NCBI RefSeq assembly: GCF_016406145.1
Contig: NZ_CP066306.1
Coordinates: forward strand, 1,736,001 to 1,800,000
Length of the DNA: 64,000 nucleotides
Source of the DNA: Pseudomonas putida
GTDB lineage: Bacteria > Pseudomonadota > Gammaproteobacteria > Pseudomonadales > Pseudomonadaceae
Direction: 5' to 3'
Shown here in pieces: positions 47,319-52,226 of the stretch. Position 1 is the first letter of the stretch. Every line of letters begins with the position of its first letter. Below the pieces are notes generated by a model. It saw only the letters and a list, made by a program, of their open reading frames with translations. It was not told the origin of the DNA and searched no databases. The position numbers and the translations under genes were made by a program.

Positions 47319-48986
47319 TCAGCCCTTGAACAGGCTGAACAGCAGTATCAGGTTGAGCAGCAGGGACAGCAGGGCCAGGGTGCGCCAGACCTTCAGTGGC
47401 TCCCGTTCAAGCAGTGGGCGTGGATGGCTGTTGAGCGCCTGGCGGTCACCACGTTCGAGCAGCAGCAACCAGTGTTCAGCGGTTTCGAAGCGCTGCGCCG
47501 GGTCCGTGGCCACGGCTTGCTGCAGGTTGTGCTGCAGCCATTCCGGCAAGTCGGGGCGATAACGCGCGGCATTGACCGGTTGGCCAAAGCGCGGGCGCTG
47601 GAAAGCTTCGACCTCGCCATAGGGGTAATGCCCGGTCAACAGGTGGTAGAGCGTCACACCCACTGCGTAGAGGTCTTGGCGCGGGCTCGGTGGCTGGCCT
47701 TCGAAGGCTTCCGGGGCGATGTACGAAGGCGTGCCTGGCAGCTCGTGGCGCGGGTCCTCGGACAGCCCTGGGCAGTACGCCAGGCCGAAGTCCAGCAGGC
47801 GCAGTTGGCCGTCTTCGCCCAGGTGCAGATTGTCGGGCTTGATGTCACGGTGCAGCAGGTTGCGTCGGTGCAGCACACCAACGGCCTGCAGTAACTGGCG
47901 GGCCACTTCCAGCCATTGGGCCAGCGGCAACGGGCCCTGCTCGGCTAGCTGCGCGGCCAGGGTTCGGCCGCTGTGCTCGCGCATCACGTAATACAGGTGC
48001 TGGCGCTGACTGGCGGCGTGCAGTTCGGGGAAATGGCGGCCGGCTACGCGGCGCAGGAACCATTCCTCAAGCAACAGCGCCTGGGCAGCACCCGGCTCTT
48101 GTTCGCGTTCCGCGGGCAAGGTTTTCAGTAGCCACGGCTGGCCCTGGCTGTCGCGAACGCGGTACAACAGCGATTGGCGGCTTTGTGCCAGGCGCGCCTC
48201 GATCTGCCAGCCATCAATTGCCTGGCCTTCGCGCAGTTCGCGGGGTAAGGGCCATTGCTGCAGTTGAACCAGGGTATCGCCAAGGTTGGCCGTGCCCACG
48301 CGCTCGACCCGTACCAGCAGGGCGCTGGCATTGTCCTGGCTGCCATTGTGGTGGGCGCTGGCGACCAGTGTATCGGCGGCCAGTTGCAGATCGGGCTGCT
48401 CGCGCAGCACGGCCTGGATGTGCTGGTCACCCAGGCTGGCCCAGACTCCGTCACTGAGCAACAGATAGCACTCGCCGGGCTGCAGCTCACCGTCCAGGTA
48501 GTCCACCAGCAGGTGTTGGTCCAGGCCCAGTGCGCGTTTGAGCACGTGCTGCATGCCGGGTTGGTCCCACACATGGTCTTCACTCAGGCACTGCAGGCGG
48601 CCGTCATGCCAGCGATAGGCGCGGCAGTCGCCGACGTGTGCCAAGGTGAAGCGGCGCCCGCGCAGCACCAGCGCGCTGAGCGTGGTCAGGAGCGGCTGGC
48701 TGCCCTGAGCGCGCAGCCAGCGGTTTTGTGCCGACAGCAGGCGGTCCAGTGCCTGCGCCACGCCCCAGGTGGCGGGGGTGGCGTAATAATCCATGGCCAA
48801 GGCCTGCAAGCTGGCACGTGCGGCAAGGCCGCCGTCAGCACATTGGCTGACGCCGTCGGCAAGGGCGAACAGGTAACCCTTGCTGGCGGCAAGCTCCGGC
48901 GCCGGGGTGACCAGGCGCAAGGCGTCTTGGTTCTCCTCGCGCGGCCCCGTGGCGCTGGCCTGGGCGAAACTCAGTTGCAGGCTCAT
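47319..48986 (-). CDS. Fused PP2C phosphatase and Ser/Thr kinase
   Basis: A 555-residue protein. Residues 1-235 are a PP2C phosphatase with metal ligands in A-D-G (Asp44), S-D-G (Asp179) and S-Q-D-N (Asp218). Residues about 260-510 are a eukaryotic-type kinase: Lys288, H-R-D-I-K-P-D-N (379-386) and D-F-G (399-401). A C-terminal helix (about 530-552) anchors it in the membrane with both enzymes cytoplasmic. The usual glycine-rich loop reads L-A-Q-S-R-Q-S-L-L and has no glycine. The gene sits between nasA and cobA, ten bases after nasA, the same neighbour as in P. aeruginosa; targets are unknown. Confidence 0.92.
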   Translation of the reverse strand: MSLQLSFAQASATGPREENQDALRLVTPAPELAASKGYLFALADGVSQCADGGLAARASLQALAMDYYATPATWGVAQALDRLLSAQNRWLRAQGSQPLLTTLSALVLRGRRFTLAHVGDCRAYRWHDGRLQCLSEDHVWDQPGMQHVLKRALGLDQHLLVDYLDGELQPGECYLLLSDGVWASLGDQHIQAVLREQPDLQLAADTLVASAHHNGSQDNASALLVRVERVGTANLGDTLVQLQQWPLPRELREGQAIDGWQIEARLAQSRQSLLYRVRDSQGQPWLLKTLPAEREQEPGAAQALLLEEWFLRRVAGRHFPELHAASQRQHLYYVMREHSGRTLAAQLAEQGPLPLAQWLEVARQLLQAVGVLHRRNLLHRDIKPDNLHLGEDGQLRLLDFGLAYCPGLSEDPRHELPGTPSYIAPEAFEGQPPSPRQDLYAVGVTLYHLLTGHYPYGEVEAFQRPRFGQPVNAARYRPDLPEWLQHNLQQAVATDPAQRFETAEHWLLLLERGDRQALNSHPRPLLEREPLKVWRTLALLSLLLNLILLFSLFKG

Positions 48987-48995
48987 CGGTTCGCC

Positions 48996-50207
48996 TCAGA
49001 CCCGCGCTGCGGTGACCGCTGCAGAACCCCAGGTGGTGCGCCAGCGCTGCTTGACCCCGAGCAGTCCGAACCAGGCCAGCAGGCCCAGGCTGGCAAACAG
49101 CCACAGGCCCATCTGGTAGTCACCGGTGTGCTGCTTGATGGTGCCGAGCCCGGCTGCCAGCAGGAAGCCGCCGATGCCGCCGGCCATGCCGATCAGTCCG
49201 GTCATCACGCCGATCTCCTGGCGGAAGCGTTGGGGGACCAGCTGGAACACCGCGCCGTTACCCGCGCCCAGGCCGAGCATGGCGCTGACGAACAACGCCA
49301 GGGCCGCTGTGGCGCTGGGCAGGTTGAAGCCGACGGCAGCAATGCAGATGGCGGCCACGCTGTACATGCCAAGCAGGGTGCGGATGCCGCCGAATCGGTC
49401 GGCCAGGGCGCCGCCCAGCGGGCGCATCAGGCTGCCGGCGAATACGCAGGCGGCGGTGTAGTAGCCTGCCGTGATCGGGCTGAGGCCGTACTGGTCGCTG
49501 AAATAGCCGGGCAGGGCGCTCGCCAGGCCGATGAAGCCGCCGAAGGTGACGCTGTAGAAGAACATGAACCACCAGCTGTCGCGATCACCCAGCGCCTTGA
49601 GGTAGTCGGCCATGGCCTTTGGCTTGGGCCGTTGTGGTGCATTGCGCGCGAGCAGGGCGAACACCACGACCGTCACCAGCAGCGGGATCACGGCGAAACC
49701 GAACACATTGTTCCAGCCAAAGCCTGCGGCCAGCAGCGGGGCCAGCAACGCTGCGAAGACGGTGCCGGAGTTGCCCGCGCCAGCGATGCCCATCGCCTTG
49801 CCCTGGTGTTGCGGCGGGTACCATTGCGAGGCCAGCGGCAGCGACACGGCGAACGAGGCGCCAGCAACGCCGAGGAATACACCGAGCAGCAGGGCTTGCT
49901 CGTAGGTGTGCACGCCCAGGTACCAGGCACAGGCCAGGGCGACAATGACGATGACCTGGCCGATCAACCCGGCGGTTTTCGGTGAAAGGCGGTCGACCAG
50001 CAGGCCCATGGCAAAACGCAGCACGGCACCGGCGAGGATGGGTGTTGCGACCATCAGGCCCCGTTGCTGTGCACTCAATTGCAGGTCGGCGGCGATCTGT
50101 ACGGCCAGCGGGCCGAGCAGGTACCACACCATGAAGCTCAGGTCGAAATACAGGAACGCAGCGAACAGCGTGGGCACATGCCCGGATTTCCAGAAGCTGG
50201 TACTCAT
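48996..50207 (-). CDS. nasA: Nitrate/nitrite transporter NasA
   Basis: A 403-residue major facilitator of the NarK/NasA group with twelve helices, bringing nitrate in for assimilation. Nitrate-signature segments are visible: G-N-S-G-T-V-F-A in the first half and G-L-I-G-M-A-G-G-I-G-G-F in the second. The start at 50207 is preceded by GTGAGGTGTTCG. Its leader (50208-50372) carries hairpins and a terminator matching NasT-controlled antitermination. Confidence 0.94.
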   Translation of the reverse strand: MSTSFWKSGHVPTLFAAFLYFDLSFMVWYLLGPLAVQIAADLQLSAQQRGLMVATPILAGAVLRFAMGLLVDRLSPKTAGLIGQVIVIVALACAWYLGVHTYEQALLLGVFLGVAGASFAVSLPLASQWYPPQHQGKAMGIAGAGNSGTVFAALLAPLLAAGFGWNNVFGFAVIPLLVTVVVFALLARNAPQRPKPKAMADYLKALGDRDSWWFMFFYSVTFGGFIGLASALPGYFSDQYGLSPITAGYYTAACVFAGSLMRPLGGALADRFGGIRTLLGMYSVAAICIAAVGFNLPSATAALALFVSAMLGLGAGNGAVFQLVPQRFRQEIGVMTGLIGMAGGIGGFLLAAGLGTIKQHTGDYQMGLWLFASLGLLAWFGLLGVKQRWRTTWGSAAVTAARV

Positions 50208-50239
50208 CGAACACCTCACTGGGCAATGCAACGGAAACG

Positions 50240-50290
50240 AAAAGACGCCGCTACCCGGTCCACTGGCATGGAGGGGTGAGCGACGTCTTT
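50240..50290 (-). terminator. Attenuator terminator in the nasA leader
   Basis: On the minus strand the arms AAAGACGTCGCTCACCC (complement of 50274-50290) and GGGTAGCGGCGTCTTTT (complement of 50240-50256) pair with minor mismatches around a loop of about 17 bases, ending in a T-run. This hairpin lies 33 bases before the nasA ATG. Its first arm overlaps the second NasT-type hairpin, so the two structures exclude each other. Confidence 0.85.
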
Positions 50291-50323
50291 GTCGGGGTTT
50301 GTGGGCAACCGCCGTTGGCTACC
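50281..50323 (-). promoter_or_regulatory. Two-hairpin ANTAR target in the nasA leader
   Basis: Read on the minus strand, hairpin P1 (complement of 50304-50323) has a 7-pair stem GGTAGCC / GGTTGCC with two G-T pairs and loop AACGGC. After nine bases hairpin P2 (complement of 50281-50294) has stem CGAC / GTCG and loop AAAGAC. Both six-base loops have A at position 1 and G at position 4, the rule for RNAs bound by ANTAR proteins. P2 shares its 3' side with the terminator arm. Function as the NasT binding site is inferred. Confidence 0.8.
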
Positions 50324-50372
50324 GGTGCGATATCTTCAGCAAGAGCTGGGCCAACATTGTACGGCCGCCTGC

Positions 50373-50948
50373 TTACCCCAGCATCTCGTGCATGGCGATG
50401 ATCTGCTCTGCCACCTGGATCAGCTTCTGCTGGCGGCTCATGGCCTGCCGGCGCATCAGGGTGTAAGCCTGTTCTTCGTTGCAGTCTTTCATTTTCATCA
50501 GCAGACCCTTGGCCTGCTCGATGCGCTTGCGTTCGGCCAGTTGCTGGTCGCGGGCCAGCAGCTGGGCCCTGAGCGCCTGATCGCTCTCGAAGCGGGCCAT
50601 GGCCACGTCCAGGATTGGCTGCAAGCGGGCGGCGTGGATGCCCTCGACGATGTACGCGCTGACCCCGGCCTGGATCGCCTGGCGCATCACCCCCGGGTCA
50701 TGCTCGTCGGTGAACAGCACAATCGGCCGCGGCTGGTCGCGGCTCACCATTACTACCTGTTCCATCACGTCGCGGTCGGGTGAATCGGTATCGATCAACA
50801 CCACGTCCGGGCGCACCATTTCGACGCAGGCGGGCAGGTCGATGGTCAGGTCTGGCGCCTCGATCACCTCGAAGCCGGCTTCGCGCAGTGCAGCCTTGAG
50901 GCGGCCGAGCTTGTTCTGGGTATCGTCGATCAGCAGGATGCGCAGCAT
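50373..50948 (-). CDS. nasT: ANTAR antiterminator NasT
   Basis: A 191-residue response-regulator-like protein. Residues 1-120 form a receiver-type domain (L-I-D-D near 6-9, acidic Asp53/Asp55). Residues about 127-187 are the RNA-binding ANTAR domain: A-E-R-K-R-I-E-Q-A-K-G-L-L-M, then A-Y-T-L-M-R-R-Q-A-M. In Azotobacter and P. putida NasS holds NasT until nitrate or nitrite binds NasS; free NasT then prevents termination in nas leaders. Start 50948 is 11 bases after nasS. Confidence 0.95.
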   Translation of the reverse strand: MLRILLIDDTQNKLGRLKAALREAGFEVIEAPDLTIDLPACVEMVRPDVVLIDTDSPDRDVMEQVVMVSRDQPRPIVLFTDEHDPGVMRQAIQAGVSAYIVEGIHAARLQPILDVAMARFESDQALRAQLLARDQQLAERKRIEQAKGLLMKMKDCNEEQAYTLMRRQAMSRQQKLIQVAEQIIAMHEMLG

Positions 50949-50959
50949 GTTGGTGACCC

Positions 50960-52162
50960 TCACAGACCGATACGGGCATCGGGCGTATCGCCCAAGGCGT
51001 GCAGGCTGAAGCTGCGGGCATAGCCGTATGGGTCGCTGCCATCCCAGCGGATACCGTCGATCAGCAGGCTGCTGCGCATGGGCGTGCCAGGGCAAGCCAC
51101 GCCCAGGGCATCGGCGGCTTGCTGGTAAAGCGCCAACTGCTGGACCTGGCGCGCCACGCCGAGGTAGTCGGGATCATCGCGCAGCAGCCCCCAGCGACGG
51201 AACTGGGTCATGAACCACATGCCGTCGGACAGGTAAGGCACATTGGCCCGCCCCTGATCGAACAGGCGCAGGGCATGATGGTCCTGCCAGTGGTTGCCAA
51301 GGCCGTCGTGATACACCCCGAGCAGCCGCGGTTCGACGTTTTCAATGGGCGTGTCCAGGTAGGCGCTGCCGCTGAGCAGTTGCGCGGTGCCGTGGCGATT
51401 TTCCCGGCTTTGTTCGATGAAGCGGCTGGCGGCGAGGATCGCTTTGATCAGCGCCCGGGCGCTGTTTGGGTACTGCTCGGCAAAGGTGCGGGCGCAGGCC
51501 AGGACTTTTTCCGGGTGGTCGGGCCAGATCGACTGGCTGGTGGCCAAGGTAAAGCCCTGGCCCTGGGCCACGGCGGCGCCAGCCCAGGGTTCGCCGACGC
51601 AGAAGCCATCGATCCGGCCTGCCTGGATGTGCGCCATCATCTGCGCCGGTGGCACTACCACGCTATTGACGTCGTGAAGGGGGTGAATGCCTTGGCTCGC
51701 CAGCCAGTAATACAGCCACATGGCATGGGTGCCAGTGGGGAATGTCTGGGCGAAGGTCAGTTTTGCACCCTGCTGGTGCACTTGGCGCGCTAGTGCTTCA
51801 GGTGTGGTCACGCCCTTGCGCTGAAGTGCGGGGGAGAGGTTGATGGCCTGGGCATTCTGGTTCAGCCCCATGAGCACCGCCATGTCGCTGGCCGGCACCC
51901 CGCCGATGCCCAGGTGCACGGCATAGACCAGGCCATAGAGGCAATGAGCGGCATCCAGTTCACCGCTGGCCAGTTTGTCGCGTAGGCCGGCCCATGAGCC
52001 CTGGCGTTTGAGGTTGAGGGTAAGGCCGTGTTGCTGGGCGAAGCCCTGGGTGGCCGCTACCACAACCGAAGCACAATCGGTCAGGGCCATGAAACCGATA
52101 TCGAGGCTGGGCTTTTCTGGCGCATCGCTGCCGTTGACCCATGCCAGGGGTGATGTATTCAC
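50960..52162 (-). CDS. nasS: Nitrate-sensing regulator NasS
   Basis: A 400-residue protein of the NrtA/SsuA-like nitrate-binding fold (start D-I-G-F-M-A-L-T-D-C-A-S, then F-P-T-G-T-H-A-M-W-L-Y-Y-W and G-F-C-V-G-E-P-W) but with no signal peptide, so it acts in the cytoplasm as nitrate sensor and NasT partner. The start is GTG at 52162, after GCGAGGATC; it gives the V/M-N-T-S-P-L-A-W-V-N-G-S-D terminus known from related proteins. Confidence 0.94.
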   Translation of the reverse strand: MNTSPLAWVNGSDAPEKPSLDIGFMALTDCASVVVAATQGFAQQHGLTLNLKRQGSWAGLRDKLASGELDAAHCLYGLVYAVHLGIGGVPASDMAVLMGLNQNAQAINLSPALQRKGVTTPEALARQVHQQGAKLTFAQTFPTGTHAMWLYYWLASQGIHPLHDVNSVVVPPAQMMAHIQAGRIDGFCVGEPWAGAAVAQGQGFTLATSQSIWPDHPEKVLACARTFAEQYPNSARALIKAILAASRFIEQSRENRHGTAQLLSGSAYLDTPIENVEPRLLGVYHDGLGNHWQDHHALRLFDQGRANVPYLSDGMWFMTQFRRWGLLRDDPDYLGVARQVQQLALYQQAADALGVACPGTPMRSSLLIDGIRWDGSDPYGYARSFSLHALGDTPDARIGL

Positions 52163-52226
52163 GTAGATCCTCGCCTGTACTGAATAGGCTGTGTGCAGGC
52201 GATGTAGCAACGCATGTGCCAAGGCG

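Follow-up and report, generated by a model that had tools for sequence, protein, structure and literature searches.

Transcription antitermination by the ANTAR protein NasT has been published for Paracoccus, Bradyrhizobium, Azotobacter, and the nirBD operon of Pseudomonas aeruginosa and Pseudomonas putida, and the original prediction for the locus described here correctly stated that the principle is not new. The NasT-controlled nirBD leader of the two Pseudomonas species, called NalA, was reportedly described by Romeo in 2012 and Nie in 2024, and a 2012 study by Wang is said, going by its title, to concern NasT-mediated antitermination of the nasAB leader of Azotobacter vinelandii. NasT is reported to bind the Paracoccus nasA leader in vitro (PMC3795266). 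Changing the first hairpin of that leader reportedly abolished growth on nitrate, as did loss of nasT, and mutating the second hairpin hardly altered expression with nitrate (PMC5424462); this last result counts against the model proposed below. Deletion of nasT in P. putida is also reported to prevent growth on nitrate (PMC7261876). For Bradyrhizobium narK the data are mixed: a NasT hairpin was predicted in the leader and narK was reported to be up in a nasT mutant under denitrifying conditions, and other work cited in the same paper found a fall under assimilation (PMC6759348). Two hairpins with six-base loops that carry A at position 1 and G at position 4 are described as the signature of ANTAR targets (PMC3369931, PMC8934654), and the candidate ANTAR elements listed by a covariance search from 2012 included some in Pseudomonas and some upstream of nitrate transporters (PMC3369931).

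We analyzed a 64,000-nucleotide stretch of a P. putida chromosome, referred to here as the window, in which the gap between nasT and nasA holds one more NasT-type leader. It is likened by title, not by sequence, to the A. vinelandii nasAB leader. By description, not sequence, it resembles the Paracoccus denitrificans nasA leader, which is bound by NasT and has hairpins that were tested by mutation (PMC3795266, PMC5424462). With NalA it would share antitermination by NasT of a nitrate-assimilation leader and, as reported for NalA, a putative sigma54 start (PMC12830290), but NalA precedes nirBD and the leader in the window precedes nasA; the genome of the window also has a nirB leader. EutV/eutP and NasR/nasF have the same two hairpins with a terminator overlapping the second one, or P2 (PMC3369931, PMC8934654). 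However, EutV is described as being switched by phosphorylation and NasR as sensing nitrate itself, whereas NasT is held by NasS.

The genes around the leader are all on the minus strand, in the order nasS, nasT, leader, nasA, a phosphatase-kinase fusion, and a tetrapyrrole methylase gene that is probably cobA. The three genes relevant to the leader are:

48996..50207, minus strand: nasA, NarK-type nitrate/nitrite MFS transporter with its ATG at 50207 (PF07690; TIGR00886, 318.3 bits with a cut-off of 311.7)
50373..51095, minus strand: nasT, regulator with receiver and ANTAR domains (PF03861, 63.4 bits; PF00072, 36.9 bits)
50960..52222, minus strand: nasS, nitrate/nitrite sensor of the NMT1-like family (PF13379, 297.5 bits)

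The coordinates of nasT and nasS are those of mechanically called open reading frames. Many relatives of NasT align only from about residue 43-50, and alignments of NasS with its relatives begin at about residue 13-26, which puts the true start of nasS further in. As predicted, the gene next to the leader encodes the ANTAR protein NasT: nasS and nasT are adjacent, NasT has both receiver and ANTAR domains, and it is the sole ANTAR match in the 5.85-Mb genome. Among the best 80 of 509 named nasT loci, the best-matching record is labelled P. putida, with 95% identity in NasT. We infer that nasA is the gene controlled by the leader. Directly downstream of nasA, 47319-48986 encodes a single protein that combines PP2C phosphatase with Ser/Thr kinase domains. 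Elsewhere in the window there is an rmf RNA (RF01755, 53646-53775, minus strand, 125.7 bits).

The original prediction placed a complete attenuation switch at 50208..50372. The switch does lie inside this interval, but its proper extent is only about 50327-50235 on the minus strand; the remainder of the interval includes a promoter-like site as well as the ribosome site of nasA. The leader contains:

50339..50353, minus strand: sigma54-type motif TGGC-N7-TTGC, with the -24 GG at 50352-50351 and the -12 GC at 50340-50339
50304..50323, minus strand: P1 hairpin, 7 bp with hexaloop AACGGC
50281..50294, minus strand: P2 hairpin (antiterminator half), 4 bp with hexaloop AAAGAC
50241..50290, minus strand: intrinsic terminator, with 5' arm 50290-50279, 3' arm 50252-50241, and a U-rich tail to 50235
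50280..50352, minus strand: match to the full Rfam model RF03032, narK RNA, 74.5 bits

The two hairpins, each longer than the 3 bp that we required of an ANTAR target, were found as predicted. P1 pairs GGTAGCC (50323-50317) with GGTTGCC (50310-50304) around the loop at 50316-50311, and two of its seven pairs are G-U. A linker of nine bases (50303-50295) leads to P2, which pairs CGAC (50294-50291) with GTCG (50284-50281) around the loop at 50290-50285. The predicted overlap of the terminator with the second hairpin was borne out: its 5' arm consists of the entire P2 loop, the 3' arm of P2, and two further bases. TCGTTT lies directly 3' of the terminator 3' arm. P1 plus terminator and P1 plus P2 are two exclusive structures, and because the terminator takes up the whole P2 loop, the A at position 1 and G at position 4 of this loop are themselves base-paired in the off state.

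RNA structure prediction, which had been suggested as a check, gave both forms. Folding of 50326-50236 resulted in P1 plus the terminator at -43.9 kcal/mol, and 0 of 200 shuffled sequences were as low. Folding without the terminator 3' arm resulted in P1 plus P2 at -13.8 kcal/mol (14 of 200 shuffles as low), or -14.2 when extended by five bases (22 of 200), so that P1 and P2 alone fold only slightly better than shuffles. A simple terminator scan of 50150-50450 found none, but the scan is blind to this terminator because it permitted loops of at most 8 bases.

We also compared the window with 100 first-order Markov simulations. Paired hexaloop hairpins with A at position 1 and G at position 4 are not unusual, with 4 in the window versus 2.4 +/- 1.3 expected. 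By contrast, a hairpin pair with an overlapping terminator occurred once in the window, in the nasA leader, versus once in total in the 100 simulated windows. The hairpin pair alone could be due to chance, but the pair with an overlapping terminator hardly could, and a chance origin of the combination was rejected on this count.

The nasA leader belongs to RF03032, scoring well above the gathering score of 43.2 bits. This RNA is present in 70 of 79 genomes sampled from the genus and in 16 of 369 sampled from the class, with the genome of the window in each sample. We aligned DNA for 142 of the 144 RF03032 places, comprising 126 sites of the genus set (two of the 128 genus places, G054:C25 and G028:C6, were left out) and all 16 of the class set. 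This alignment (A1) includes at least three likely false sites (rows 137, 138, and 142), which were dropped before it was thinned to 67 sites (alignment A2). The gene downstream in the genus set is nasA at 64 sites, nitrate reductase at 26, NasS-like at 33 (31 nasS and 2 whose product is 30% identical to NasS), and unassigned at 3. In the class set it is NasS-like at 8 sites, nasA at 2, nitrate reductase at 1, and unassigned at 5.

Both loops are strongly conserved. In P1 and in P2 alike, A occupies position 1 in 139 of the 142 sites, A position 2 in 140, and G position 4 in 140. Positions 3 and 5 vary, and the A at position 1 and G at position 4 are kept before three kinds of gene. Only ten rows depart at position 1 or 4, and three of these are likely false matches; among nitrate-reductase leaders, three have G instead of A at position 1 of the P2 loop, and two have it at that position of the P1 loop. 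Loss of these positions among related leaders had been named beforehand as evidence against the prediction, and the opposite was found.

An alignment of leaders had likewise been suggested for covariation, and results from this showed that P1 and the terminator covary strongly and that P2 is nearly invariant. Across the 142 sites, the P1 helix is paired in 92.6% of alignment cells with two-sided changes in 6 of 7 pairs, and the P2 helix in 89.8% of cells with two-sided change in only 1 of 4 pairs. For P1 and P2 together, 91.5% of cells are standard pairs, and cells with two-sided changes number 228 versus 54.9 +/- 9.2 after shuffling (0 of 500 shuffles as high). Four of five covariation measures were above all shuffles; the fifth, the number of pairs with two-sided change, was no higher than chance (7 versus 7.3), and one slid version of the helices had 9 such pairs. 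The signal for P1 and P2 is mostly that of P1, and P2 has little of its own. The terminator is paired in 92.3% of cells with 150 two-sided changes versus 62.8 +/- 12.1, above all 500 shuffles on all five measures. Slid versions of it had at most 49 two-sided changes, although a slide of +3 still left 83.6% of cells paired. At least 10 of its 12 pairs form in 134 of the 142 sites. With the thinned 67 sites there were 237 two-sided changes versus 80.7 +/- 8.3, again with 0 of 500 shuffles as high on all five measures.

The original prediction drew attention to a minimal P2 stem of four pairs. P2 does have four pairs, but this is ordinary for the family: all four form in 85 of the 142 sites, three in 56, and two in 1. 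In the genus set, the second P2 pair is A-U at all 64 nasA sites and all 33 NasS-like sites, and A.C in all 26 nitrate-reductase leaders (for example L002 1501-1578).

The genome has a second RF03032 match (48.3 bits) before a nitrate reductase-flavoprotein fusion. For further searches we used a model of P1 plus the terminator, R1. Its 67 building sites came from the genus set (56 sites) and the class set (11 sites, in 10 genomes). The model gave one more leader:

L004:9776-9862: third ANTAR-type leader, before nirB, model R1, 34.7 bits

In this leader P1 is TGATC/GATCA with loop AACGGC and P2 is CAGGC/GCCTG with loop AAAGGC. It was not matched by RF03032 in the genome search. R1 finds it in its own stretch but missed it genome-wide, so whole-genome R1 counts are lower bounds. 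By eye, a promoter-like motif lies upstream of both the nitrate-reductase and the nirB leaders. The original prediction mentioned neither these two additional leaders, nor membership of the nasA leader in the narK RNA family, nor the sigma54-type motif close upstream of its P1.

These data bear on whether the terminator merely ends the nasST transcript, with the hairpins incidental. It does lie just past the nasT stop codon, as such a terminator would. However, we consider this reading highly improbable, given that a promoter-like motif sits between nasT and the hairpins, that the 142 sites show covariation in P1 and almost no change in its loop, and that the same module stands before nitrate reductase and nirB in this genome.

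Sigma54 promoters have the consensus GG-N10-GC at -24/-12 and start transcripts about 12 bases after the -12 C. With such a start, all of P1 would be in the RNA. The GG-N10-GC upstream of P1 is kept in 136 of the 142 related sites, and in these 136 the 5' arm of P1 starts 13-26 bases past the -12 GC, most commonly 15 (60 sites) and never fewer than 13. Single sigma54-type motifs are common, with 26 in the window versus 15.9 +/- 4.1 expected, so the case for a promoter rests on conservation and distance. Judging from the sequence, we infer that sigma54 is used at the nasA leader.

Strict dependence on sigma54 is disfavored by data reported for P. putida KT2440, where nasA under nitrogen limitation rose 12.43-fold in an rpoN mutant versus 14.64-fold in the wild type (PMC7801951). 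Together with how common the motif is by itself, this result favors the idea that the attenuator is real but its RNA comes from another promoter or from nasST readthrough, with GG-N10-GC not the main start. We regard this as unlikely, though a good deal less so than an incidental terminator. The motif has a sharp minimum distance from P1 wherever it is kept, a scan of 50150-50450 found no sigma70-type promoter, and the nirBD leader nalA is said in a 2026 review to start at a sigma54 promoter under NtrC (PMC12830290). Expression of nas genes is also reported to be lower in a P. stutzeri ntrC mutant (PMC8443478).

We conclude that the nasA leader is very likely a NasT-controlled transcription attenuator. 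Support from this analysis comes from the exclusive structures, loop conservation, covariation of P1 and the terminator, the promoter motif, gene context, and co-occurrence with NasT. RNA polymerase would start at about 50327 from the sigma54-type promoter, placing the 5' end of the transcript a few bases upstream of P1. By analogy with published work on NasT, NasR, and EutV, in the absence of nitrate NasS would hold NasT, the stable terminator would form with its 3' arm pairing all six bases of the P2 loop, and transcription would stop before nasA. With nitrate present, NasT would be freed and would bind the hexaloops of P1 and P2 while the RNA is still being made; P2 bound by NasT would stay closed and occupy the terminator 5' arm, and nasA would be made.

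Co-occurrence was examined in the 79 genus genomes, where a NasT match over 300 bits was taken as strong. Both the RNA and strong NasT are present in 68 genomes, NasT alone in 1, the RNA alone in 2, and neither in 8 (Fisher p 1.5e-8, in tests that ignore relatedness). The genome with NasT only (G041) shows weak matches to the RNA, at 30.2 and 28.9 bits. The two genomes with the RNA but not NasT (G043 and G068) each have a NIT-ANTAR gene (NasR-like) and one further ANTAR gene. Two others with a NIT-ANTAR gene (G001 and G018) have no RF03032 match, and weak R1 matches of 23.6 and 21.4 bits lie nearby. Among plausible sites, G at position 1 of the P1 loop occurs only in the nitrate-reductase leaders of G043 (L109) and G068 (L090); the nasA leader of G068 keeps A there. 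A link between NIT-ANTAR in place of NasT and this G is only a lead, from two cases.

In the class sample, R1 matched 60 of 369 genomes, 50 not used in building the model and ten in the building set (the genome of the window included); matches in the genus and class building sets are partly by construction, and G169, one of the 10 class building genomes, was not recovered. NasT-like matches (E < 1e-20, a threshold picked after viewing the list) occur in 80 class genomes. These include 49 of the 60 R1-positive genomes, leaving 11 R1-positive genomes outside, and 31 of the 80 have no R1 match. Among the best 80 of 509 named nasT loci, which are nearly all Pseudomonas and overlap the R1 building set, 69 have an R1 match within 2.3 kb downstream of nasT. 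Of the other 11, 5 have a match further downstream, and in 4 the locus stops no more than 134 bases from nasT.

These results also speak to the idea that narK RNA acts as a riboswitch for a small molecule, or that some factor without an ANTAR domain reads this leader. Rfam lists narK RNA as a cis-regulatory RNA with one hairpin, and two genomes carry it without NasT, as this idea would have it. However, ANTAR targets are marked by just this combination of two hexaloops, with A at position 1 and G at position 4, and a terminator that overlaps P2, and both of these genomes have a NIT-ANTAR protein of nitrate-sensing type. We therefore find this explanation very hard to credit, and an ANTAR target remains our reading of the family.

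The window matches the full RF03032 model, but the family as drawn differs from the leader described here. The structure line in Rfam pairs only P1 and leaves P2 single-stranded. The model stops short of the terminator 3' arm, and its first block, here TGGCCCAGCTCTTGCT, reads as sigma54-type -24/-12 promoter DNA. In a search of open-licence literature, we found no mention of RF03032, "narK RNA", "narK motif", or "narK leader".

The same element precedes nasS in 31 of the 79 genus genomes. In the window we found the following instead:

52207..52221, minus strand: sigma54-type motif TGGCACATGCGTTGC in front of nasST

No P1, P2, or terminator was seen behind this motif, and R1 had no match there. 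The idea of a promoter before nasST has a precedent in a 2025 survey, in which ANTAR-family genes, nasT among them, were predicted to have sigma54 promoters (PMC12316311). Among the best 80 of 509 named loci, R1 (E up to 1e-4, so that weaker elements may be missed) matched before nasS in 24. All 24 are among the 52 loci less similar to the window; the 28 most similar to it (L216-L243, searched over 5 kb upstream of nasT in each) had no match. By eye, the window and seven similar loci (L075, L111, L114, and L117-L120) have only a promoter-like site before nasS. A loose P2 pattern before nasS in L111 and L118 was not counted; the only fitting stretches are upstream of the promoter motif. By eye the element is also absent before nasS in L089, L097, L103, and L132, the last from another genus of the family, so loci outside the P. 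putida-like group can lack it too.

Where the leader precedes nasST, it may provide positive autoregulation. Control of nasST by itself was not mentioned in the titles and abstract openings among the literature matches listed. Overall, we think it probable that narK RNA is not a separate class, its model being a sigma54 promoter, an ANTAR P1/P2 target, and half a terminator, and that many Pseudomonas carry the same attenuator before nasST, through which free NasT would raise its own synthesis, whereas the P. putida-like group of the window and some others have only the promoter-like site.

In this way a catalogued RNA family, RF03032, gains a likely job, with corrected structure and boundaries. 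These data outline a nitrate-assimilation regulon of transporter, nitrate reductase, nitrite reductase, and, in many species, the regulator itself. The regulon would pair a promoter of the nitrogen-starvation type with a terminator gated by nitrate, and because some related species have the nasST switch and others lack it, the effect of autoregulation can be tested.
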